Shown here: positions 34,714 to 47,651 of the stretch, in pieces
How the letters are laid out: the number at the start of each line of letters is the position of its first letter
Position numbering within the stretch: the stretch's first letter is position 1
Source: Oceanospirillum multiglobuliferum
GTDB taxonomy: Bacteria > Pseudomonadota > Gammaproteobacteria > Pseudomonadales > Halomonadaceae
DNA: 64,000 bases
Direction: 5' to 3'
Assembly (NCBI RefSeq): GCF_900167095.1
Contig: NZ_FUXG01000002.1
Location: forward strand, 124,001-188,000
Notes under the pieces: model-generated
What the model saw: only the letters and a program-made list of their open reading frames with translations
Databases searched by the model: none
What the model was told of the DNA's origin: nothing
Made by a program: the position numbers and the translations under genes

Positions 34714-36093
34714 ATGTGGTACATCATGAGTACTCTAAAAGTATTGTTAATATATGTAATGTTGTGTCTTAGCATTCCATCCTACCTCTATGCATCAGAG
34801 AAAACAGAGGCGTTAAATGCATTAAAAGATAAAGCTCTATTTTATCTTGCGCAGGGTCAAGCTGAAAAAGCATATCAAACTCTAAAACCTGCAGAGCTGG
34901 CCTACTCTGGAGATGCTCAGTTCAACTACTTGTTAGGTATATCTGCAATTGATGCAGGACACCCTGGTGATGCATCTTGGATTTTTGAGCGAGTAGTGGC
35001 GGTAATGCCTCATCATGCTGGAGCTAGAATGGGTATGGCTCGCGCTTTTTTTCAGCTTAAAGATTATGAAAATGCTAGAAAAGAGTTCTTGTTGCTAAAA
35101 ACGATGTCACCTCCTGAATCCGCGTCTCAAGCTATTGAAAAATATTTAGCCGAGATAGATCGTATCACAGAGAAAAAATCCACTTGGCTATTTAATGGTC
35201 TGGTCTACTCTGCTGTAGGTCACGACTCAAATGTTAATGGTGCCCCCACCTCTGAGAAAATTCTGCCTGCACCTTGGATGCAGTTGTTTCTAACTGTTTT
35301 AGGTAGTCCTGATGGTACGATTGCAATAGACCAAGAGAAAAGCAGCGCATATTTAGAGGTTGGTACGTCCAATAAGGCGACTTATAAAAAGCCTGAAACT
35401 TGGTCTTTTTGGGGGCAAGTCAAGGCTAAAAACAAAGAATTGCAAAGGTATAATGAGTTCTCATCCAGAAACATTGAGTTGGCAATAGGCTCTCTTTGGG
35501 TAAAAGATAGCCATAGTATCAATAGTGAGCTGGGGCTGAGTTATGTATGGCGAGGCTCAACTCTAAACAATAAGATACTTAGCTTACAGAGCAGCTATAG
35601 TTACTCTCTCAATCCAAGAACCCTAGTGGGTGGCTATCTATTCTTAGCGGACCAACAATACTTAGAGTCTAGTAGCAATAACGGAGTGTTAAGTACAGTA
35701 GGGGTTAGTGGTAGCTATATTTGGGGGCAGTATCGTCCTGTTGTACTGCAGGGTAATTTTTATGCAGGCCAAGATAAAGCTGTTAGCTCGCGCCCAGAAG
35801 GTGATAAGTCTCTTTTCGGCAGCAGAGTTGGATTGCAGTTTATTTACAATCAGCAACACTCTTTTAGTACGAGCGTCTCCTGGTCAGATAGCCGATATGC
35901 GAAAGAAAATAGTATTTTTGAGAAAACGCGCACAGAACAGCAGTTAAGTTATGCATTAGGCTATACTTGGAGCGTCAACAAGTCATTTTCTCTAAGTACA
36001 AGAATCAGTCGAAGTGATACTGACTCGAATATTGCGCTTTATGATAGTGAAAAGAGTGAGATTTTTCTGCGAGCAGATTACGTTTATCAATAA
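34714..36093 (+). CDS. Exported TPR plus outer-membrane beta-barrel protein, Slam/DUF560-like
   Basis: A 459-residue protein with a signal peptide (core LLIYVMLCLSI, cleavage near SYLYA-SE). Residues 30-145 are TPR-like helices (ALFYLAQGQAEKAYQTL, GDASWIFERVVAVMPHHAGARMGMA). From about 160 to the end it alternates polar and aromatic residues as in an outer-membrane barrel, with the DUF560-like opening GLVYSAVGHDSNVN near 170 and an aromatic last strand FLRADYVYQ. This order, TPR then barrel, is that of surface lipoprotein assembly modulators (Slam). The giant repeat protein starts 5 bp after its stop. ATG 34714 and ATG 34726 are both possible; neither has a strong ribosome-binding site. Assignment to Slam is by architecture, not alignment. 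Confidence 0.7.
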   Translation: MWYIMSTLKVLLIYVMLCLSIPSYLYASEKTEALNALKDKALFYLAQGQAEKAYQTLKPAELAYSGDAQFNYLLGISAIDAGHPGDASWIFERVVAVMPHHAGARMGMARAFFQLKDYENARKEFLLLKTMSPPESASQAIEKYLAEIDRITEKKSTWLFNGLVYSAVGHDSNVNGAPTSEKILPAPWMQLFLTVLGSPDGTIAIDQEKSSAYLEVGTSNKATYKKPETWSFWGQVKAKNKELQRYNEFSSRNIELAIGSLWVKDSHSINSELGLSYVWRGSTLNNKILSLQSSYSYSLNPRTLVGGYLFLADQQYLESSSNNGVLSTVGVSGSYIWGQYRPVVLQGNFYAGQDKAVSSRPEGDKSLFGSRVGLQFIYNQQHSFSTSVSWSDSRYAKENSIFEKTRTEQQLSYALGYTWSVNKSFSLSTRISRSDTDSNIALYDSEKSEIFLRADYVYQ

Positions 36094-36098
36094 CAGAA

Positions 36099-39000
36099 AT
36101 GTTTAACATTGAACTATTAGTGACTACTATGATTTCTAAAATCGCTATAGATGCCAGAAAAATATACCAAATTCCATTGTTACTCATCGTTTTTAGTGGT
36201 TTTGCGTGGGCCGGTGAAGCAGGCAAAATTTTATTTGTTCACGGTAAAGTAAATATCATTAGCGCATCGGGTGAAAGTAGGCTGGCGGAGAGAGGCGCTT
36301 CCGTCTTTGAGGGTGATAAAATAGTTTCTGAAGCAGCCAGTAGCATGCAGTTGAAAATGATCGATAGCGGCTACTTAGCAATTCGTCCATCAAGCGTTAT
36401 AAGGCTTGATGAATATCGTTTTGAGCAGAAGGAAAACGATACTGCGCAAGCATCACTTTTGAAGGGTGGTATTCGCTCAATTACAGGTGTAATAGGTAAA
36501 ACAAAAAAAGAGAGCTTCAAGCTTAGAACGCCTGTCGCAACTATAGGTATCAGAGGAACTGACTTAGAACTTTACTACTTACCACAGAAAAGCCGTGCGG
36601 GTTCAGTCAATGGTGCGTATTTAAGAATTAACTCTGGTCGAGGTTATATTCAAACCCAAGCAGGAGTGCAGTTTGTCAGCTCAAATCAGGTTGCTTTTGC
36701 AACGAATAGCCAACAGCTACCTACACTGATTAATAATCCACCAAAGTTTTTCAATGACCCAAATGAGGACCCTCTCGCTGATACTGGAGGTGAAGGCTCA
36801 ATAAGTGATGAAGGTGAGGCCAATCCCCGTCAAGTACCACCTGAGGATGTTCGTAGTGGAAATACCACGCCAGACTCAACTAGTTTAAATGCAAAGCCGA
36901 AAGCTAAAGAGCGCTCTGAACCTAGTGTTGTAAATTATAGTTTACCGCCGGACATGCAAGAAAGCTGGCGTATTAATGATATAGAGGAACCTGTTGAGGT
37001 CAGCTATCACGAGCCAACATTTTCTGTTGTCGACAATACCGTTAAAGATATTGAAAATAAAACGCCTGATACCACAAACGGTCAAGATCCAGGTGTGATT
37101 GATGGAGAAGCACCTAAGGATCCAATTGAAGTCAGCAAACCTAAAGGAAGATATAACTACTCAACTAAGCCTAGCTTTTCTGGTCAGAACCTAAGTGATA
37201 GTAGTGAAGCCGCACTGGCTATTGATTTTGATAGCGGTATTGTGAACTACAGCCTGTCTTTATTCTTTAAGCCTGAAGCAGGTCGACAAGTGGCAAAAGC
37301 TTCTTCAGAGAATGGGGGGGAATGGTCATTTAAAGGAACAGGCAATATATCAGATCTAAATACCAGCGGCTTAGTATTAAGTGGTTATTACCTCGACTAT
37401 ACCGACCAGAAAAAGTATAGCGCTGGTGGTGTATGGAAAGGAATGTTCACAGGTGACAATGCTGAGAGCTTCACAGGCTCTCTTGATCTCTTTACGCTGG
37501 ATAACAGTCTATCATTTTCTGGTACTAGTACATCGACTAATCGTGATCAGAGCACTATTAACTTTCTCAGTGGTTTCAGCGAGAACAGTAACAATATTGT
37601 TGGCTATATACAAAGCGATAAAAACAGTGACGTATTAAGTAACTATCAACTCTGGCAGGAAAATGGACAACTTGTGGCTTTAGTTCATAAAGCTAATCAA
37701 GGACAGCTTCTTGCTGATAGTGCTGTTGAAAAAGGCCTTTTAGCAGGTGGTGCAACCGTAACGTGGGGGCACTGGCAAACAGGCTGGAGTACATTTGATG
37801 GCCAAGACTTATTGCCGCAAGCCACGCCTCTTCACTATATATATGCTGACAACTTAAGCGATAGTGCTGTACTTAAAGATAGGCAAGGTACCTATCTCTT
37901 TAATAATATAGACAGCTCCGTTAGTAATAGCCTCAGTGAGATCAGTACCTTATCCGGTGACTTAACAGTAGATTTTAGCACTAAGGAAGCGCATTTAGAG
38001 TTTGTGAGCAAATTTAGCCAGAGTAGCTGGAGTGCGGCCGGAAGGGGCAGTATTGCCAGCTTACAGTTGGGGGAGTTCTCAATATCTGGGCTACGTACTA
38101 GCATACAGGACAGCACTACTGAGGCTGCATCAGGCAAAGTCCTTGGCCAATTCTCAGGTGAAAATTTAAATAGTCTATGGGGGCATTTTAGCTTAACAAG
38201 TCCGACCGACTATCTAAGTGGTGTATATGCCTTCAGTAATCCAAAGCTAATTGACTATCTAGCTGATCTAACTCTAGCTGGTTCAAAACTAGGCTACTTG
38301 CTAGAAGGACCGTCGGTAAGTAGCCTAGATGACTATGATTTGTGGCAGAGTGATAACATGCTTTTGGGCGCTGTTAACAGAACATCTCAAGAGCAGAAAG
38401 TCACCAAAGTTACAACTCAGAAAATAGTGCCCTCGGGAGAAAGTAGGGTCGTTTGGGGAAGTTGGCTGCAAGGTTGGAATCGTATTAACGACCAAGTACT
38501 GACTCAGCACCTCACTCCTATACAATATATATACGCCGATAGCTTAAGTGATAACTCAATTATTACGAATCGTTTAGGTACTTATAGTTCCAGTCATATT
38601 GACGGTATTGCTTCTAATAGTATCGCAGAGCTTGGAGATCTTTCTGGCAATGTTAATATTGACTTTAGTGCACATAGCGCAGATTTAGATATTTTAAGCA
38701 ACATTGGCAATGATACTTGGACTGCATCTGGAAAGGGGCCAATTAGTAGCTTGCAGGCTGGTCAGTTTGGGCTAATAGGGCAACGTAAAAATAACCAAAA
38801 TGACTCTTCAGAGGATGCCTCTGGACTAATACTTGGACATTTCTCTGGTGCAAACTTAGATACTCTTTGGGGGCACTTCCGATTAACCAGCAATACAGAT
38901 CAACTTAATGGCGTATATGCATTTAGTGACTTCAACTTAGATGGATATTTATCTGGCCTTAAAAAAGATGACCGAACGATTACTGGATATTTGTTAGAAG

Positions 39001-41996
39001 GAAAGCATCTAGGTAGCTTCAGTAACTATCAAATATGGAGCGCTGATAATCTACTACTAGGTATAGTCGAAAATTCATCTGGAGCCCAATGGGTTACCAA
39101 CAAAGCAACCCAGCAAAGTTTAGCTGTTAATAGCTCAACAATTACTTGGGGTAGTTGGAAAGAAGGTTGGTCTATTTTCGACACAAAAGAGCTCATACCA
39201 AAGCAAACTCCCCTTCATTATATATATGCGGATAGCTTGACTGATGCGTCATTAGTGACTGCTCGAGGAGGTCTTTACAACTTTAATCAGGTTGATGGGA
39301 CTAGCTCTGATAATGCAGGAACCTTTGGTAATGTACAAGGTAGTCTGAGCATTGACTTTAGTAATCAGCAAGCAGACTTAAGTCTTTCAAGCCAAATGAA
39401 TGGGATAACTTGGAGTGCATCAGGCAAGGGGAGTTTAAATAGCCTGCAGTCAGGGGGGGTTGCGTTGGAGGGGAAACGCACGAACACCGCTCAAATAACC
39501 TCTACTGAATCGGTTACAGGTAGCGCTATTGGGCAGTTCTCAGGTAACAGTGCAGACAGTGTATGGGGGCGCTTCTACCTTTCAAGTAATAGTGATCAAT
39601 TAAACGGAGTTTATGCTTTTAGTGATGCAAAGCTACATAACTACCTTGCAGACCTTAGTCAAGTATCTGATACCGCATATGGGCATGTGCTAGATAACCA
39701 CAGTAGTAGTAATTTGAGTGCTTTTCAAAGGTGGCAAAAAGACGGCTTACTTTTAGGCTTGGTCAATGGTACAACGCAAGAGCAATGGATAGCGGAAAAC
39801 ACGACGCAACAAAGTATTTCTGGAGGAAGTGCACTTGTCACTTGGGGTAGCTGGCAGCAAGGCTGGAACCGAGTTAATGACCAAGCACTTAGCTCACAGA
39901 CAACTCCTATTCAGTTTATTTACACCGACAGTCTAACTGACAGTTCTGTTGTTTCTAATCGCCAAGGTATATATAACTTTAGACAAGTTAATGGGTCTGC
40001 AAGTAATAAAGCTGGAGAGCTAGGCGGTCTATCAGGGAGTCTGAATATTGATTTTGGCAATCAGAAAGTAGGGCTAAATCTTTCTAGCCAGTTTAGCCAA
40101 AGTAGTTGGGCTGCCTATGGTGCGGGTGGAATAAATGAACTTCAGTCGGGTAATTTTGCACTCAGTGGCACATTCTCCAATATACAAAAAAATACTTCGG
40201 AAACTGCTACAGGCCTTGCTTTAGGACAGTTTTCAGGTGGACAAGCTGATATGTTATGGGGGCAATTCTCTCTTAATAATCAATCCCAATCAGATAAATT
40301 GAGTGGCTTGTATGTGTTTTCTGACTCTGCTGTAGATACTGTCATAACCCCTTCTTTAAAAGAAGAGGACTTTATTATTCAGCTAAGCTCTAACGGTAGT
40401 CGCTTATTGGAAGCGGGTTCAGATGTGGTTACAGCTTTCAACTACGATGGAGGCTTGTATGCTGTTAGCCTCCCGACTGCTGCAAATAATAACTCTTTAA
40501 CTTATAAAAATTTATCACCTAGCACGGCTCAGTCTTTCTCATACTCTGATAGCTATGACATCATGCGCTGGGGTTTTTGGTCTACTTACAGCCGTCATGA
40601 TGGTGTTGATACAGATAGCCCCCTTTTCTATAGCATGATTGAGAACCTTAACACGCCTAGTATCGACTCAAAATTACTAGTTAGTCAGCGCGTAGACTAT
40701 ACGCTTGTGGGAGGATTGATCTTTAGTAAATCAGGCGGGGAGCTTTTACTCGATAATAGCTTGACTCACTTAGGCTTAGACTTTGCGTCAGGTGTGCTAG
40801 GAATGTCGCTCAGCATGAACTCTAGTGATGGCCTAGAACAGTGGACGCTTGGTGCTGAGGGTAATTTGTCAGGTCTATCTATGCATGAGCCTATTGATAT
40901 TAACTTATACGGTACTGTTGAATATTCAGCTCAAGATATTGCAGGCAATGATAGTAGCCCAATGAACTATGATATTGTTAACGGTACATGGCATGCATTA
41001 TGGGGAGGAAGTTCAGGGCAGTTCTTTATTGGTGATATCTCTCTTTCTTCTGAACAAAACTCAAAGATAGCCGCAGAAGGTGTCGTAGCATTCGCAGGGG
41101 ATGTATTAAGCTACCCCAGCGCTAAAGATGTCAAAGGTATGGACTTGGTTGGTCTAGCTTCAGTGCAAATAACAGATGGTCAAGGAGTAAGTGTTTCAGC
41201 CCACGCGCTAAAGTCAGGCAATAGTAACAATGACTTTCACTTGAAATCTGCAACAGACTCAACTCTTATGAGCTTTAGGGAAGATAATAACTGGATAACT
41301 GTACGAGAAGAGCTAGCAACTCACGTCAAAAATAGCTCATCGTATACATTATCTACTAGTGGAATAGCTGTTACGCAATCAACTCAAGTTGCAGCTAACA
41401 TAGGAGACTTCACTACAGATGATGGGCAGAATACAGTTAAAAGTATGACAGGGAATAATGTTGCTGAAGTAAACTGGGGGCGTTGGGCTTCTAGTGGCAA
41501 TAATAGCTTTGATACAAATATCTCACCTTATAATGATGTTCAGGCGTTGCATTATATCTATGCATCTAATCCAACTTCACTCGATACTGTCATTAATAAA
41601 GTAGGTGTCAGCAACTATCTTTTTGCAGGTGGTACAGCTCCGACGTTATTGAATAATAATGGCTCATATGTTGGAACGCTGAACAAATTTGGTATTGAAG
41701 TTGACTTTAGTGGGCAATCTTTAGCTGCAATGCTTGATTTGACTTTAAATGGCAATACCTATACTGCAATTGGAGGTGGTGGTATATCTGAATTCTTAGA
41801 AAGTTCTGGTATTGCTTTGTCAGTGGAGCAAGAAAGCTCCGTTGTTGGAGGGGGGAGTTTAAATGGTCTGTTTGTTGGCTCAGATGCTGAAGGCATTATT
41901 AGTCAATACAACTTGTATGTACCTAGCGGCTCCATCAATGGTGCAGCACTGCTACAACAAATTACCCATTCTCTATCACAGACGTCTCCACCTTAA
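36099..41996 (+). CDS. Giant exported FecR-domain protein with tandem ~231-residue repeats
   Basis: A 1965-residue protein. A signal peptide ends near GFAWA-GEAG (about residue 38; an alternative ATG at 36129 shortens the n-region). A FecR domain follows (about 42-195: GKVNIISASGE, VFEGDKIVSE, LRTPVATIGIRGTDLELYYL). A Pro/Asp/Glu linker runs to about 350. From there to about 1490 it is built of tandem repeats, then a diverged C-terminal region ending in another WGRW...LHYIYAS copy near 1790. Each repeat carries WGSW, HYIYADSL, IDFS, WSASGKGS, LGQFSG and LWGHF motifs, resembling TbpB-like barrels. No lipobox Cys is visible. Asn/Ser/Thr-rich composition suits a surface protein. Probably exported with help from the preceding Slam-like protein. 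Confidence 0.8.
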   Translation: MFNIELLVTTMISKIAIDARKIYQIPLLLIVFSGFAWAGEAGKILFVHGKVNIISASGESRLAERGASVFEGDKIVSEAASSMQLKMIDSGYLAIRPSSVIRLDEYRFEQKENDTAQASLLKGGIRSITGVIGKTKKESFKLRTPVATIGIRGTDLELYYLPQKSRAGSVNGAYLRINSGRGYIQTQAGVQFVSSNQVAFATNSQQLPTLINNPPKFFNDPNEDPLADTGGEGSISDEGEANPRQVPPEDVRSGNTTPDSTSLNAKPKAKERSEPSVVNYSLPPDMQESWRINDIEEPVEVSYHEPTFSVVDNTVKDIENKTPDTTNGQDPGVIDGEAPKDPIEVSKPKGRYNYSTKPSFSGQNLSDSSEAALAIDFDSGIVNYSLSLFFKPEAGRQVAKASSENGGEWSFKGTGNISDLNTSGLVLSGYYLDYTDQKKYSAGGVWKGMFTGDNAESFTGSLDLFTLDNSLSFSGTSTSTNRDQSTINFLSGFSENSNNIVGYIQSDKNSDVLSNYQLWQENGQLVALVHKANQGQLLADSAVEKGLLAGGATVTWGHWQTGWSTFDGQDLLPQATPLHYIYADNLSDSAVLKDRQGTYLFNNIDSSVSNSLSEISTLSGDLTVDFSTKEAHLEFVSKFSQSSWSAAGRGSIASLQLGEFSISGLRTSIQDSTTEAASGKVLGQFSGENLNSLWGHFSLTSPTDYLSGVYAFSNPKLIDYLADLTLAGSKLGYLLEGPSVSSLDDYDLWQSDNMLLGAVNRTSQEQKVTKVTTQKIVPSGESRVVWGSWLQGWNRINDQVLTQHLTPIQYIYADSLSDNSIITNRLGTYSSSHIDGIASNSIAELGDLSGNVNIDFSAHSADLDILSNIGNDTWTASGKGPISSLQAGQFGLIGQRKNNQNDSSEDASGLILGHFSGANLDTLWGHFRLTSNTDQLNGVYAFSDFNLDGYLSGLKKDDRTITGYLLEGKHLGSFSNYQIWSADNLLLGIVENSSGAQWVTNKATQQSLAVNSSTITWGSWKEGWSIFDTKELIPKQTPLHYIYADSLTDASLVTARGGLYNFNQVDGTSSDNAGTFGNVQGSLSIDFSNQQADLSLSSQMNGITWSASGKGSLNSLQSGGVALEGKRTNTAQITSTESVTGSAIGQFSGNSADSVWGRFYLSSNSDQLNGVYAFSDAKLHNYLADLSQVSDTAYGHVLDNHSSSNLSAFQRWQKDGLLLGLVNGTTQEQWIAENTTQQSISGGSALVTWGSWQQGWNRVNDQALSSQTTPIQFIYTDSLTDSSVVSNRQGIYNFRQVNGSASNKAGELGGLSGSLNIDFGNQKVGLNLSSQFSQSSWAAYGAGGINELQSGNFALSGTFSNIQKNTSETATGLALGQFSGGQADMLWGQFSLNNQSQSDKLSGLYVFSDSAVDTVITPSLKEEDFIIQLSSNGSRLLEAGSDVVTAFNYDGGLYAVSLPTAANNNSLTYKNLSPSTAQSFSYSDSYDIMRWGFWSTYSRHDGVDTDSPLFYSMIENLNTPSIDSKLLVSQRVDYTLVGGLIFSKSGGELLLDNSLTHLGLDFASGVLGMSLSMNSSDGLEQWTLGAEGNLSGLSMHEPIDINLYGTVEYSAQDIAGNDSSPMNYDIVNGTWHALWGGSSGQFFIGDISLSSEQNSKIAAEGVVAFAGDVLSYPSAKDVKGMDLVGLASVQITDGQGVSVSAHALKSGNSNNDFHLKSATDSTLMSFREDNNWITVREELATHVKNSSSYTLSTSGIAVTQSTQVAANIGDFTTDDGQNTVKSMTGNNVAEVNWGRWASSGNNSFDTNISPYNDVQALHYIYASNPTSLDTVINKVGVSNYLFAGGTAPTLLNNNGSYVGTLNKFGIEVDFSGQSLAAMLDLTLNGNTYTAIGGGGISEFLESSGIALSVEQESSVVGGGSLNGLFVGSDAEGIISQYNLYVPSGSINGAALLQQITHSLSQTSPP
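37758..40559 (+). repeat. Four tandem imperfect repeats of ~231 codons in the FecR-domain gene
   Basis: Measured at the recurring (V/I)xWG motif, units begin at 37758, 38448, 39141 and 39837 (residues 554, 784, 1015, 1247), giving periods of 690, 693 and 696 bases, with a fourth diverged unit of about 723 bases. Each unit has two halves, one starting WGxWxxGW and one starting at LGxFSGxNxDxLWGxF. A diverged half-unit precedes the array and others follow it. The units are similar at protein level but differ enough in DNA to be old duplications. Confidence 0.88.
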
Positions 41997-41998
41997 TG

Positions 41999-44215
41999 TT
42001 ATTTACTAGTATGCGTAAACACACCGTCCCAATTATCACCGGGCGGTGTGTCTCGATATAGCTGAATTCGCTCAAGGTAAACACTGTATAGCAGATGGTC
42101 TTCATCTGATTTCAAAGCGTCAAGCAGGCGCTCGGCGTGGCCCCACTCTTGTTTTCTAAAATGCTCCAGCGCGGTATGAAATAGGGAGACTTTATCTTCT
42201 AGTTTCTCGTCAATTTCTGTTTTCAGCCCTATCGGCTCAAAGATTGCGACGGGTTCATGCTTACCTTTTACCCGTACCAGATCAAGCTGACGGTACAGGT
42301 ATTCTGGCGCTGCATCAGCGGTGGTTTCACTGACCATAAGATCAACGCCATACTGTTTAGTTAGTCCCTCAAGACGTGAGCCAAGGTTAACGGCGTCACC
42401 CAGTACGGTATAGGCCATACGGAACTCAGATCCCATGTTGCCAACATTCATCATGCCGGTGTTGAGTCCGACCCCTATTTTCAGCTCTGGCCAACCTCGC
42501 TTTTTAAACTCAGGCCCTAATTCGTGCATCACTTGTACCATCTTTAACGCCGCTTTAACGGCGTGACTGGCATGCTGTTCATCTTTCAGAGGGGCACCCC
42601 AGAAGGCCATGATCGCATCCCCCATGTATTTGTCGATGGTGCCGCGATAATCATGAATAACACCAGTCATAGGGGTGAGAAACGCATTCATTAAGCGGGT
42701 GAGTTCCTCTGGATTTAACCCTTCTGAAATGGTGGTAAAGCCACGTACATCTGAGAACAGAACGGTCATGTCACGACTTTCACCCTCCAATGTGATGCTG
42801 CTAGGGTCTATATTCATTTCGTCCACTAACTCAGGTGGAATATATTGGCCAAATAATTTGGACAATTCTCGCTTGCCCTTTGATTCAACCAAGTAACCGT
42901 AAGCCAGTTGATAGCCTACAATCAGTATCACCATTAATAATGGAGAGGCTAAAGGGAATACCCACTGATAGTCGATCCAAAGTAACATGTTTCCATACCA
43001 AACTCCGGCCACAACAATAGTTGATACGACCAAAATAAGCATTGGTGATAAACGGGATAGACTAAAGGTTAGCAATAGACCTAAAAATAAAAGTAAAAGC
43101 AGTTCTGCCCCGACAGTATAGGTTGGTTGCTGCTTAAAGGATTGATGCAGAATACCTGCGATTAGATTGGCGTGAACCTCTACTCCTGGATAAACACTTT
43201 GTACAGGAGTTGTTCTAAGGTCTAGCAGGCCTGGAGCACTTGCGCCAAGCAACACAATAGCACCTTGTAGTTTCTCTTTAGGTACGGTTTGTCGGAATAC
43301 GTCGATAACGGAGACATATTCAAAAGTACCTCTGCCACCATAATAAGGCACTAATACTCCAGATTGGTTATCCACTGGTATTTTAAAGCCACCTACATTT
43401 AACCCCTCTAGAATTGGGTTGCTCTCATCACCGCTAATGATCAGCTCAACTGGAGGCATACCCAATACACTTCTAATGACACCTAATGATAAGGATTGAT
43501 AGTACTGACCTTTATACTCTTGCATCATTGGCACTCTGCGGAACACACCGTCAGCATCAACCAATGGGTTGTCAAAAAAACCACCGCTTATGGCATTGTT
43601 TTGTAAAATGGGTTGATTGCCAGAAAAACGCTTGGCTTGAGGGATAGGAAAATAGCTAGGTGGTATACGGCTAATTAATTCTAGTGGTTTAGGCAAGTTA
43701 CCAACAGAAGGTACTTTTTCTTCAGACTCTCTATCTAAGTAAAAACCAGTGATAGCGGAGGTTTGTGCCAGTATTTCCGCCAGCTGTTTATCGCCATCCA
43801 TCTCTGCCATCAAAGGTCTTAAAGTGGGTGCTAACTCTGGACGCTGTTCTAGCATTTTCTCCAGCGCTTCTGTTGCCCCTCGTCGATCAGGCTCTGCAAA
43901 TACAATATCGAATCCCAACGTACTGATTTCATACTCTGCAAATAAGATATAGAGCAACTCTGCCACGTATTCTCTTGGCCAAGGGTATTGCCCAATTTCA
44001 CGCAAGCTGGCTTCATCGATATCAATGATTAAGACCTGAGGGTCGCCTGTTTTGGGTAAGGTTAAATTGATTCTCAAATCATATGCGATCTGTTCTAAAC
44101 GGTTAATGAAGCTGATCGACCAATAGCCAGAGGCATGAAAAATAAAAAGTGTCATGATGGCGAGCCCACCAAGCGGACGTATCAGGCGACGCAAGAGCTT
44201 CTTAAATGCTGGCAT
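41999..44215 (-). CDS. CHASE2-domain class III adenylate/guanylate cyclase
   Basis: A 738-residue membrane cyclase. One N-terminal transmembrane segment (residues 14-32), an extracytoplasmic CHASE2 domain to about 340 (LIIDIDEASLREIGQYPWPR, VLLGASAPGLLDLRTTPV, VYPGVEVHANLIAG), three membrane helices between 370 and 442, then a cytoplasmic cyclase. The catalytic domain has both metal Asp sites (VLFSDVRGF near 487 and KYMGDAIMAFWG near 530, with the adenine-type Lys) and VLGDAVNLGSRLEGL with the transition-state Asn and Arg. All residues expected of an adenylate cyclase appear present. It ends 2 bp from the giant FecR-domain gene, tail to tail; CHASE2 cyclases and FecR-domain proteins are known to co-occur. 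Confidence 0.92.
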   Translation of the reverse strand: MPAFKKLLRRLIRPLGGLAIMTLFIFHASGYWSISFINRLEQIAYDLRINLTLPKTGDPQVLIIDIDEASLREIGQYPWPREYVAELLYILFAEYEISTLGFDIVFAEPDRRGATEALEKMLEQRPELAPTLRPLMAEMDGDKQLAEILAQTSAITGFYLDRESEEKVPSVGNLPKPLELISRIPPSYFPIPQAKRFSGNQPILQNNAISGGFFDNPLVDADGVFRRVPMMQEYKGQYYQSLSLGVIRSVLGMPPVELIISGDESNPILEGLNVGGFKIPVDNQSGVLVPYYGGRGTFEYVSVIDVFRQTVPKEKLQGAIVLLGASAPGLLDLRTTPVQSVYPGVEVHANLIAGILHQSFKQQPTYTVGAELLLLLFLGLLLTFSLSRLSPMLILVVSTIVVAGVWYGNMLLWIDYQWVFPLASPLLMVILIVGYQLAYGYLVESKGKRELSKLFGQYIPPELVDEMNIDPSSITLEGESRDMTVLFSDVRGFTTISEGLNPEELTRLMNAFLTPMTGVIHDYRGTIDKYMGDAIMAFWGAPLKDEQHASHAVKAALKMVQVMHELGPEFKKRGWPELKIGVGLNTGMMNVGNMGSEFRMAYTVLGDAVNLGSRLEGLTKQYGVDLMVSETTADAAPEYLYRQLDLVRVKGKHEPVAIFEPIGLKTEIDEKLEDKVSLFHTALEHFRKQEWGHAERLLDALKSDEDHLLYSVYLERIQLYRDTPPGDNWDGVFTHTSK

Positions 44216-44369: not shown

Positions 44370-47300
44370 ATGCATAATTTATTGAGCTCTGGCAGACGAC
44401 CTGATATGCACCACTTACCCTTGAGTACATTAGTTCCATCAACGAGCCTAACCGCCCTCTCAGATGAGACTGTTGTTGATGTCATTGCCAAAATGTATCA
44501 ATTAGGCAGCAGCAGTGTCGTTATTCTGGATCAGAATCATCATCCTGTCGGTATTTTAACGGAACAAGATGTGGTCGCGCTATTTGCACAGGATGCAAGT
44601 TTATTGCAAGCCAAAGTGCAATCGGTATGTAGTAACGCGCTTGTGACGGTACTGGCTCATGAGTCTTGTCAGCAAGCGTTGCGGCTGATGACTGAGCGCC
44701 AACTGCGTCATTTGGTGCTGCTAGATGAGCAGAAGAATTTTTTGGGTGTGATCAGTGAGGACGAGTTGATCCACCATATGACATCTGTCCCGATGCAGAT
44801 TGCTCCATTGGTGAAAGAGGTGATGAGCACCTGTGTGCAGCAATTGGGGCCAAATTGTAATCTACAAGATGCGTTATGTTTGATGCGTCAGCAACGTATC
44901 AGCTGTGTGGTGGTGACAGAAGCGCAGCGTGCGATCGGGATTTTAACCGAACGAGACATTGTTTATCTGGCTGCCCAGCAAGCGCAACCACAACAACTGC
45001 TACTGCGAGAAGTGATGCACAGCCCAGTATTGTCTGTGGTCGGCGATCTGTCTGTACGTGATGCTGCTTTTTTGATGGAGCAGAAAAAGGTGCGTCGCTT
45101 TGTGGTTGAGGAGCAATCGCAGATTAAAGGGATTATCACGCATCACGATATTTTACGTTCAATGCAGCGTGCTTATGTGGAGTATTTAGAAGCAGAGCTT
45201 GCATTCAAAGAGCGGCAAATCGAAGAGATTTCAAACCACATTCGACAGTTTGATGAGCAAAAGCTGTTGCGCAGTTTGATGTTTCAGATCAGTGACAGCA
45301 TCTATGTCATTGATGCTGAGACAGGCGATATTTTGGATGTGAACCAGCAAAGTTGTGCGCAGTTAGGGTACAGCCGAGAAGAGTTGCTGAAGATGAAGCT
45401 GCCTGAACTTTCTACGGCGGCGCTGACATCCAATATTTTCAGCGTTATCAATCAGCAAATTCGAAAGCAAGGCTTTGCCTTGGTTCAAAGTCAGCATCGA
45501 CATAAGAGTGGAGCGTTGATTCCTGTTGAGGTCAAGGTCAGTCAACTGCACTTGAGTGATCGAGTGATCAATATTGCAATTGCGCGAGATCAGAGTGAGC
45601 GCCTTGCAGCAGAGCGGGCCCTACGAAATAACGCGGCTATTTACCAAGGTGTTATCAGTACAGCGTTAGATGGTTTTTGGATGACGGACACTAACGGCAA
45701 CATTTTAGATGTGAATCAAGCCTATTGTGATATGTCGGGTTTCAGTCGTGAAGAACTGCTGAGTATGCGCATTTTTGACATCGACAATTTAGAAACTGAG
45801 ACCGACACTCTGACGCGTATCGCTAGTATCAAAAAAGTCGGTCAGGCTAACTTTATATCACGTCATCATACAAAATCGGGCGTGCCTTTTGATGTTGAAG
45901 TGAATGTCACTTACTGGCCTGAGCAGGGGGGGCGTTTTTTCGTTTTCTGCCGCAATATTACCGATAAACTGGCCGCAGAAGCGTATTTGAAACTTTCGGC
46001 GACTGTATTTGAAAATACCAACGAAGCGGTAATGATTGTCGGGGCTGACTATAAAATTCAACGGGTTAATCATGCCTTCAGTGTTATGACAGGATATAAC
46101 GCTGAAGAGGTGATTGGACAGTCGGCGTCTTTATTACAGTCGGGATTACACCCTAAAAGTTTTTATGAAGAGATGTGGCGTCGAATCATCTGTGACGGTC
46201 ACTGGCAGGGTGAAGTTATTAATAAGCGTGTGGATGGTACGACCTATCCTGAGCTTCTGAATATCAGTGTGGTGAAAAACTCTGAGGGCGAAATCAGTCA
46301 TTATGTGGGTATTTTTGCGGATCTATCGAAGCAAAAGGCGTCTGAAGATAAGTTAGCTTTTTTAGACTATCACGACCCGCTCACGGGATTGGCAAATCGA
46401 AAGACCTTGATGTTGCGTCTGGATCATGCGATCAGAAATGCGCAGAAAAACAAAAAGCAAGTGGCGCTGTTGTTGATCGATTTGGATCGTTTTAAAGATG
46501 TGAACGACAGCTATGGGCATGTGGTTGGGGATGAGCTGCTCAATCGAGTCGCACGTGTCTTGGATACCGAATTGAGCGATATCGATACTTTGGCTCGACT
46601 GGGTGGCGATGAGTTTGCTTTGCTGGTCGATGAGGTCGATAGTGTGGAGTATTTGTCGAGTTTGGCATCGCAAATTATCCGTCTGCTCAATAAGCCTTGG
46701 TCTCTTTCCAATAATGTCACGGTGACCATTGGTGCCAGTATTGGTATCAGTTTGTCACCACAAAATGGTCACTCCGCTAATCAACTGCTGCAACATACTG
46801 ATGCAGCGCTCTATCAAGCCAAAGCGGATGGTCGCTCTCGGTTCTGCTATTTCTCTGAAACCTTGACACAGGAAGCCCGTTATCGGGCTGAGCTGGAAAC
46901 TCGGATGCACAGGGCGCTGAGACGGCATGAACTACAGGTTTATTTTCAGCCTCAAATCGATATTAAAAGCGCTAAGCTGACAGGGGCTGAAGCCCTTGTA
47001 CGCTGGCTTGATCCAGAGCAGGGCTTATTGTCTCCTGTGCACTTTATCGATCAATGTGAGCAAAATGGTCAGATTATTGCGCTAGGGCGGCAAATTCTAG
47101 AGATGACCTGTCAGCAAGGTAAAGCTTGGCTTGATCAGGGGTTTGCGCCGATTAGTTTGGCTGTCAATTTATCTGCGCGTCAGCTGAAAGAGCCACATTT
47201 GTATCAAGACTTGGTCGATATTCTCACCGCGACACAGTATCCCGCTGAATATTTAGAGTTGGAGCTGACAGAAAGTGCGTTGATGATGCATGAGCATGAG

Positions 47301-47651
47301 GTGGTGCTACTGTTAGAAAAAATTAAGGGGCTGGGTATTCGCTTGGCTATTGATGATTTTGGCACAGGTTACTCCTCTTTTGCCTATCTCAAACGTTTCC
47401 CAATCGACGTGTTGAAGATTGATAAAAGCTTCATTGATGATATTCCGTATAACCATGAAGGCATGGAGATTGTTTCCGCCATTATTGGTATGGGGCACAC
47501 ATTGGGGTTTGAGGTTTTGGCAGAGGGCGTAGAGACTGACGCGCAGCTGGCATTTTTAGCGCTGAAGCATTGTGACCAGTATCAGGGCTACCTCTGCAGT
47601 AAACCAATAACTGCCGCAGAATTTGAGCAATTGTTATCCGGCCAACAATAG
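44370..47651 (+). CDS. CBS-PAS-GGDEF-EAL cyclic-di-GMP signalling protein
   Basis: A 1093-residue cytoplasmic protein. Two CBS pairs (about 13-130 and 145-270: SSSVVILDQNHHPVGILTEQ, RISCVVVTEAQRAIGILTERD) suggest adenine-nucleotide sensing. Three PAS domains follow (about 300-415, 420-540 and 545-660, each with a DVNQ/RVNH-type core). The GGDEF motif is intact near 745, but the inhibitory RxxD site upstream reads SDID, so product inhibition there is probably lost. The EAL domain is intact: EALVRW near 874, NLSARQL, ELTESAL, IDDFGTGYSS, LKIDKSF, EGVET and QGYL. No transmembrane helix is seen. Both synthesis and hydrolysis of c-di-GMP are possible. ATG 44406 is an alternative start. Confidence 0.93.
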   Translation: MHNLLSSGRRPDMHHLPLSTLVPSTSLTALSDETVVDVIAKMYQLGSSSVVILDQNHHPVGILTEQDVVALFAQDASLLQAKVQSVCSNALVTVLAHESCQQALRLMTERQLRHLVLLDEQKNFLGVISEDELIHHMTSVPMQIAPLVKEVMSTCVQQLGPNCNLQDALCLMRQQRISCVVVTEAQRAIGILTERDIVYLAAQQAQPQQLLLREVMHSPVLSVVGDLSVRDAAFLMEQKKVRRFVVEEQSQIKGIITHHDILRSMQRAYVEYLEAELAFKERQIEEISNHIRQFDEQKLLRSLMFQISDSIYVIDAETGDILDVNQQSCAQLGYSREELLKMKLPELSTAALTSNIFSVINQQIRKQGFALVQSQHRHKSGALIPVEVKVSQLHLSDRVINIAIARDQSERLAAERALRNNAAIYQGVISTALDGFWMTDTNGNILDVNQAYCDMSGFSREELLSMRIFDIDNLETETDTLTRIASIKKVGQANFISRHHTKSGVPFDVEVNVTYWPEQGGRFFVFCRNITDKLAAEAYLKLSATVFENTNEAVMIVGADYKIQRVNHAFSVMTGYNAEEVIGQSASLLQSGLHPKSFYEEMWRRIICDGHWQGEVINKRVDGTTYPELLNISVVKNSEGEISHYVGIFADLSKQKASEDKLAFLDYHDPLTGLANRKTLMLRLDHAIRNAQKNKKQVALLLIDLDRFKDVNDSYGHVVGDELLNRVARVLDTELSDIDTLARLGGDEFALLVDEVDSVEYLSSLASQIIRLLNKPWSLSNNVTVTIGASIGISLSPQNGHSANQLLQHTDAALYQAKADGRSRFCYFSETLTQEARYRAELETRMHRALRRHELQVYFQPQIDIKSAKLTGAEALVRWLDPEQGLLSPVHFIDQCEQNGQIIALGRQILEMTCQQGKAWLDQGFAPISLAVNLSARQLKEPHLYQDLVDILTATQYPAEYLELELTESALMMHEHEVVLLLEKIKGLGIRLAIDDFGTGYSSFAYLKRFPIDVLKIDKSFIDDIPYNHEGMEIVSAIIGMGHTLGFEVLAEGVETDAQLAFLALKHCDQYQGYLCSKPITAAEFEQLLSGQQ

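Follow-up and report, generated by a model that had tools for sequence, protein, structure and literature searches.

A locus of Oceanospirillum multiglobuliferum combining a Slam-like barrel, a giant FecR protein with TbpB-like lobes and a CHASE2 cyclase: a candidate envelope signalling module

The locus and its genes

The DNA analysed here (the window) is a stretch of 64,000 nucleotides of the gammaproteobacterium Oceanospirillum multiglobuliferum (NCBI RefSeq assembly GCF_900167095.1, contig NZ_FUXG01000002.1, positions 124,001 to 188,000 of the forward strand), from a genome that is 3.5 Mb in size and 98.75% complete. Three genes are clustered in it, encoding a tetratricopeptide-repeat (TPR) protein with an outer-membrane barrel (P0001), a giant protein that carries a FecR domain and repeats resembling the lobes of TbpB (P0002), and a cyclase with a CHASE2 domain (P0003). 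P0001 and P0002 lie on the + strand at the positions reported in the initial annotation of this DNA, with the 5 bp described there between the stop of the first and the ATG of the second, while P0002 and P0003 are convergent, their stops being separated by 2 bp. The initial annotation described the first two genes correctly, but it did not mention the convergent cyclase gene. In window positions, the three genes are:

34714..36093, + strand: P0001, TPR plus outer-membrane beta-barrel, SlipAM/Slam-like, 459 amino acids (open reading frame, Pfam, profile comparison, tree)
36099..41996, + strand: P0002, giant FecR protein with seven TbpB-lobe-like units, 1965 amino acids (open reading frame, Pfam, unit hidden Markov model (HMM))
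41999..44215, - strand: P0003, CHASE2 adenylate/guanylate cyclase, 738 amino acids (Pfam CHASE2 5.8e-54, Guanylate_cyc 4.3e-21)

The TPR-barrel protein

P0001 consists of an N-terminal TPR region, recognised by Pfam, followed by a C-terminal barrel, recognised by profile comparison:

34714..34797, + strand: signal-peptide-like N-terminus, read by eye
34801..35112, + strand: TPR region, residues 30-133 (Pfam)
35182..36090, + strand: barrel domain, about residues 157-459 (hhalign, barrel-only sequences)
35224..35238, + strand: DSNVN motif, residues 171-175, with N173 invariant

The signal peptide, the TPR helices and the DSNVN motif noticed earlier were all recovered, the first by eye, the second as a TPR_19 match at 9.1e-10, and the third with an asparagine, N173, that does not vary across the 33 rows of an alignment of FecR-adjacent barrels, the row of the window included. 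The C-terminal stretch gives weak Pfam matches to DUF2860 (1.2e-5) and BBP2_2 (5.5e-4), and the match to TPR_Slam has an E value of 0.056 and 14.3 bits, against a cut-off of 35.2 bits. The proposal that the barrel is of the Slam/DUF560 type, whose barrels have 14 strands, holds for the family profile but not for P0001 searched alone.

Among 25 members of the barrel family (the window included, and five without an adjacent FecR gene), 12/25 match SlipAM and 16/25 match TPR_Slam at E<=0.1, with best values of 4.8e-17 and 1.2e-5, respectively, and homologues that adjoin FecR genes in a genome of the same genus (G003) exceed the Pfam cut-off for SlipAM. When TPRs were removed and a profile of 35 FecR-adjacent barrels was compared with three Slam barrels of one genome, the match reached 98.8% (E 5.5e-17, 283 columns), whereas the control barrels of PgaA and BcsC reached 3.5% and 1.2%. 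P0001, in turn, matches at 99.7% (E 6.9e-27) a family profile from which it and its closest homologue had been left out. Because the relatives match Slam and P0001 is joined to them through the family profile, its kinship with Slam can be taken as settled.

In a tree of 71 barrel rows, made by a quick method with support from the Shimodaira-Hasegawa-like approximate likelihood-ratio test (SH-aLRT) only, P0001 groups with the FecR-partnered barrels, and a single change separates FecR-labelled from TbpB-labelled barrels (support 91-93, not starred). The labels overstate this division, since four of the TbpB-labelled rows (L293, L294, L297 and L298; Pfam on one) also carry FecR. In the favoured reading, P0001 belongs to a separate branch of the SlipAM superfamily whose members have FecR partners. 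No stretch of the barrel alignment was conserved enough for scanning, and the scan of genome contigs was made with the cyclase instead; a barrel scan of viral contigs gave no match.

The FecR protein and its repeat units

36099..36212, + strand: signal-peptide-like N-terminus of P0002, AWA/G, no lipobox (pattern and eye)
36315..36614, + strand: FecR domain, residues 73-172 (PF04773, 1.2e-7)
37128..37517, + strand: unit 1, barrel half only, residues 344-473 (unit HMM 7.1e-18, model positions 44-160 of 164)
37746..38228, + strand: unit 2, residues 550-710 (unit HMM)
38433..38918, + strand: unit 3, residues 779-940 (unit HMM)
38925..39629, + strand: unit 4, handle plus barrel stretch, modelled with AlphaFold2 (HMM part 39129-39614, residues 1011-1172)
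39819..40313, + strand: unit 5, residues 1241-1405 (unit HMM)
40566..41063, + strand: unit 6, degenerate, residues 1490-1655 (unit HMM 7.6e-17, the lowest score of the array)
41457..41942, + strand: unit 7, C-terminal, residues 1787-1948 (unit HMM), 17 amino acids before the protein end

The FecR domain, already named in the initial annotation, is the only Pfam domain of P0002 above its cut-off. Neither pattern nor eye finds a lipobox next to the cleavage-like site AWA/G, which agrees with the earlier description of a non-lipidated giant protein; a downstream ATG (M11), which would give an equally plausible signal peptide, may be the true start. A classical FecR anti-sigma factor was considered and ruled out, as no anti-sigma domain was seen, the neighbouring genes encode a barrel and a cyclase, and the start is signal-peptide-like.

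An all-against-all BLASTP comparison of P0002 returned no matches, and a motif and an HMM brought out the repeats instead: the motif GxFSG...WG occurs nearly exactly four times (683, 913, 1145 and 1376), and an iterated HMM delineates seven units, each with a domain E value of 7.6e-17 or better. The TbpB-like nature claimed for these repeats is borne out by the motif, the HMM units and the modelled fold, but not by Pfam, where TbpB_B_D stays below threshold in P0002 (E 0.33, 11.9 bits versus a cut-off of 26); in the FecR protein of a relative, L343, the same family reaches 30.3 bits. The AlphaFold2 model of one unit has the TbpB lobe fold, a handle plus an 8-stranded barrel. The sequence relatives of the units in the PDB are cargo proteins of the type XI secretion system (T11SS), to which Slam belongs, and the closest of these in sequence is hemophilin. 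Both homologies, that of the barrel to Slam and that of the unit to the TbpB lobe, are nearly certain. The last unit ends 9-18 amino acids before the C-terminus in 8/8 proteins with at least three units.

The next-to-last lobe is degenerate in all six long arrays of the genus (40566-41063 in the window, and the penultimate units of L063, L075, L076 and L079 among the others); scored against single-unit proteins, it is the lowest of its array, or the second lowest in L063. As a separate observation, a genome of the same order (G342:C60, about 8-19 kb) encodes several multi-domain TbpB_B_D proteins consecutively, one of them in an open frame of 1770 amino acids.

Conservation of the barrel-FecR pair

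The pairing of a barrel gene with a FecR gene is conserved but patchy. Barrel matches were found in 23/97 relatives and matches to the FecR protein in 24/97. When 185 genomes of the class were searched for SlipAM, blind to FecR, 20 loci in 20 genomes were found, and at 13/20 of them a FecR gene lies inside the 1.5-kb flank. A search of 249 genomes of the phylum with the barrel profile, not counting the window's own locus (L270), yielded 20 loci at E<1e-59, one of which (L269) is identical to profile row L227, and 19/20 have an adjacent FecR gene; a second barrel of one genome (G481), also below 1e-59 and outside the 20 loci, has FecR beside it as well. Given that one unit folds as a TbpB lobe and that the gene pair is conserved, the observation goes far beyond chance.

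Among the window and its relatives, FecR genes with units have a barrel neighbour in 15/16 cases, and those without units in 6/20 (Fisher p 1.3e-4, for related and hence not independent genomes). This comparison covers 36 usable FecR genes of 39 rows, excluding FecR open reading frames below 150 amino acids (L057), FecR matches that did not reach 1e-20 (in L084, its first FecR gene), and frames near an edge for which no barrel was seen (L063, L068 and L075). The single unit-bearing exception, L084 4677-7697, lies behind the first FecR gene of L084, which adjoins a barrel. In one fusion, L052, FecR (73-177), TPR (303-359) and the match to the barrel profile (268-677) stand in a single chain.

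The presence of lobe-less FecR partners rules out that the pair is always a display system, and, together with the frequent CHASE2 cyclase or kinase in the module, makes a reading as display only incomplete. As such partners are common, the export of lobes would not be the sole role of the barrel; a natural candidate for its other role, by analogy with NsrA (described below), may be to hold FecR at the outer membrane. A LysM domain was suspected at the start of the FecR protein of L317, and Pfam did not find one at E 0.01.

Another contig of the window genome encodes a paralogous FecR protein (L071 15126-16970) of 614 amino acids, with two FecR-profile stretches and a C-terminal half that is barrel-like by eye; no barrel gene was matched nearby. 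L077, from a genome of the same genus, resembles it and has an OMP_b-brl match of 2.6e-6, just below the cut-off.

Linkage to CHASE2 genes and the NsrA-CyaK case

Of the barrel-adjacent cases from the window and its relatives, 9/21 have a CHASE2 cyclase gene abutting the pair, and two of the other 12 stand at a contig end; in seven of the nine it is next to the FecR gene, and in L081 and L082 it is on the barrel side. In the phylum sample, a CHASE2 gene abuts 8/20 loci, one of the remaining 12 being a 3-kb contig. The position of this gene relative to the pair varies (convergent, downstream or upstream), and so does its output, which is an adenylate/guanylate cyclase in the window and L343, and a hybrid histidine kinase with Response_reg and Hpt in L322, L324 and L333.

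The cleanest bridge of the module is L343, where all matches exceed the curated Pfam cut-offs: a FecR protein with FecR (1.2e-13) and TbpB_B_D (6.7e-7) in one chain is followed by a gene with SlipAM (3.5e-16) and TPR_Slam (4.4e-10), and then by one with CHASE2 (6.8e-51) and cyclase (8.9e-26). The complete gene set is also present in L108 (Woeseiaceae), L110 (Gallionella) and L114 (a betaproteobacterium). On plasmid pAMI5 of Paracoccus aminophilus, barrel, FecR protein and CHASE2 cyclase are consecutive, and the C-terminus of the FecR protein matches TbpB_B_D at 2.3e-4 (below the cut-off) and FHBP_C at 2.3e-3; Shinella sp. H4-D48 provides a second named plasmid example. FecR and CHASE2 are also linked without a barrel match, as in the cyclase loci of IMG/VR (L171-L209), where a FecR gene is upstream in 16/39, within 170 bp of the cyclase match in 14.

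Used as a probe, P0003 finds CyaK of Sinorhizobium meliloti. The gene nsrA of this species presumably lies just upstream of cyaK, and the protein encoded directly upstream, with an overlap of one base, has 1190 amino acids, a FecR domain (3.1e-15) and several TPRs. We take it to be NsrA on the basis of its length, given that the barrel of NsrA is published as spanning residues 600-1200 (PMC7529298). According to the published accounts, an external protein signal is received by NsrA in the outer membrane, and its cognate cyclase is CyaK (PMC7529298, PMC13001267). The combination of FecR, TPR, barrel and CHASE2 cyclase is therefore a signalling set in one published case.

On plasmids of Ensifer and Shinella (L315, L316), FecR/CHASE2 clusters lie beside NHLP-type bacteriocin export genes. 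In the window, divergent from the cyclase gene, 44370-47651 encodes a large protein that is CBS-PAS-GGDEF-EAL-like by eye.

A possible mechanism and its alternatives

The locus may be read as an envelope signalling module of three parts, with a translocator of the Slam/T11SS type at its base. P0001, in the outer membrane, would pass the tandem TbpB-like lobes of P0002 to the cell surface, the C-terminal lobe leading as export signal, as in the T11SS. The FecR domain of the non-lipidated P0002 would remain periplasmic, attached to the barrel or close to it, as the FecR-TPR-barrel fusions suggest, and the lobes would hang outside the cell as a multi-lobed antenna. Ligand binding or tension outside could alter the FecR end, which would then act on the periplasmic CHASE2 domain of the inner-membrane cyclase, and cyclic AMP would change on the model of NsrA with CyaK in S. 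meliloti. Export of the lobes by the barrel is the fairly probable part of this chain.

Several observations weigh against this chain. P0001 alone has no match to Pfam SlipAM (PF04575) at E<=1, and among single barrels compared with the Slam rows only 6/35 reach 50%, P0001 standing at 7.7%. The same kind of barrel pairs with unit-less FecR proteins of 281-320 amino acids, other barrel-paired FecR partners end in Pro/Gly-rich tails, and in L063, a locus of the same genus that is syntenic by eye, a FecR protein of 2457 amino acids with seven units stands by a CHASE2 cyclase with no adjacent barrel, another barrel being encoded elsewhere in that genome. No CHASE2 neighbour was found for 12/21 pairs among relatives and 12/20 phylum loci, and 63/80 related cyclase loci have neither FecR nor barrel in the DNA available. 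NsrA does not match the FecR-adjacent barrel profile at E 0.01, and the S. meliloti FecR protein SMc02177 is reported as dispensable for signal perception (PMC5498481). Of the FecR partners in the phylum sample, 4/19 (L317, L318, L319 and L321) have a lobe, recognised as a unit or by the TbpB profile, and in 15/19 none was detected. On account of this last count, our confidence in the full chain was lowered from an even chance to slightly below it, and that in the split NsrA-like receptor, discussed next, was raised a little. The generalisation to a new class of transenvelope receptors, in which a T11SS-type translocator threads FecR-anchored lobes and periplasmic FecR switches a CHASE2 cyclase or hybrid kinase, is more tentative again.

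The main competing explanation, doubtful in our judgement, is a split NsrA-like receptor, in which the barrel is the surface receptor and P0002 a wholly periplasmic adaptor or spacer to the CHASE2 cyclase, with no export. The putative NsrA, one chain of FecR, TPR and barrel directly upstream of cyaK and published as an outer-membrane receptor (PMC7529298, PMC13001267), would fit such an arrangement, as would the single chain of L052 and the 15/19 lobe-less partners of the phylum sample; however, the barrel is Slam-like by profile, the lobe has the TbpB fold with T11SS-type cargo as its PDB sequence relatives, and units accompany barrel genes among near relatives (15/16 versus 6/20). Plain T11SS display, with the lobes as adhesin or binder of a ligand such as haem or a protein, FecR as anchor only, and the cyclase as a matter of co-regulation, is unlikely: Slam homology, the cargo fold and the pairs with no CHASE2 neighbour in the DNA seen speak for it, but CHASE2 genes recur directly beside the pair, in several orders and with cyclase or hybrid-kinase outputs, and the FecR-CHASE2 linkage exists without the barrel too (16/39 IMG/VR loci). 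A polysaccharide-export TPR-barrel of the BcsC/PgaA kind or a plain porin, next to a FecR protein that binds glycan, is very improbable, since the TPR-plus-barrel plan and the weak DUF2860 and BBP2_2 matches of P0001 that would favour it are set against the PgaA and BcsC controls, which led us to reject the exporter, and no synthase gene was recognised by eye among the window neighbours.

Comparison with known systems

The closest known secretion system is Slam/DUF560 (T11SS) with TbpB-type cargo, which shares with the window a TPR-barrel outer-membrane protein encoded beside a secreted protein, the handle-barrel fold of the modelled lobe, and a C-terminal unit. Unlike that cargo, the proteins described here have FecR at the start, are non-lipidated, carry 0-7 lobes, and often belong to a module with a CHASE2 cyclase or kinase. 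Lipidation itself divides known cargo, TbpB being lipidated and hemophilin-type cargo not; P0002, without a lipobox, is like the latter in this respect. In the tree, barrels labelled FecR and those labelled TbpB fall on opposite sides, apart from four mixed rows.

The initial annotation knew of no described Slam substrate of this architecture, and this agrees with the open-access literature searched for FecR with DUF560, Slam-type terms and TbpB. No open-access paper was found that brings FecR together with DUF560, 'FecR' is absent from the main text of two T11SS papers (PMC8406197, PMC12282271), and the open-access accounts of FecR with CHASE2 or cyclases yielded no T11SS link. Among the open-access papers listed, FecR occurs together with Slam-type terms in PMC11233812 and PMC12075148, and together with TbpB in PMC11233812 and PMC2662411. 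A sigma factor and a FecR regulator, as separate genes, have been described beside TbpA, TbpB and Slam genes (PMC11233812). The experimentally verified T11SS proteins all fall within one of ten sequence clusters (PMC12282271), and the module offers a possible class of cargo for the T11SS-like proteins that have FecR partners.

On the signalling side, FecR proteins paired with CHASE2 sensors have precedents. An operon of a LysM-FecR protein and a CHASE2 histidine kinase is described for BiofilmReg of Burkholderia and for Pseudomonas aeruginosa; its named parts include no barrel protein, no lobes are described, and what CHASE2 domains recognise is given as unknown (PMC5192318). Clusters of a CHASE2 cyclase, FecR and TPRs have already been noted in Campylobacterota, where the description names neither a T11SS link nor a TbpB-type domain (PMC9239204). 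NsrA-CyaK comes closest, with FecR, TPR and an outer-membrane barrel beside a CHASE2 cyclase, in what experiments are reported to have established as a signalling pair. It differs in that NsrA is one chain in which no TbpB-type match was found, whereas the window has separate genes, with the lobes on the FecR part.

The module may also supply CHASE2 cyclases and kinases with their input, and through NsrA-CyaK the questions of T11SS cargo and CHASE2 input are both tied to an experimentally known case, with pAMI5 of P. aminophilus as a named locus where the module could be tested. If the proposed chain is true, a secretion system would serve as the assembly machine of a signalling antenna. This suggests an unrecognised bacterial route for sensing the outside world, in which a fold known from the surface proteins of iron piracy is set on a signalling domain. 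The T11SS and FecR/CHASE2 signalling are both of known kinds, and the surprise is that they meet in one module.
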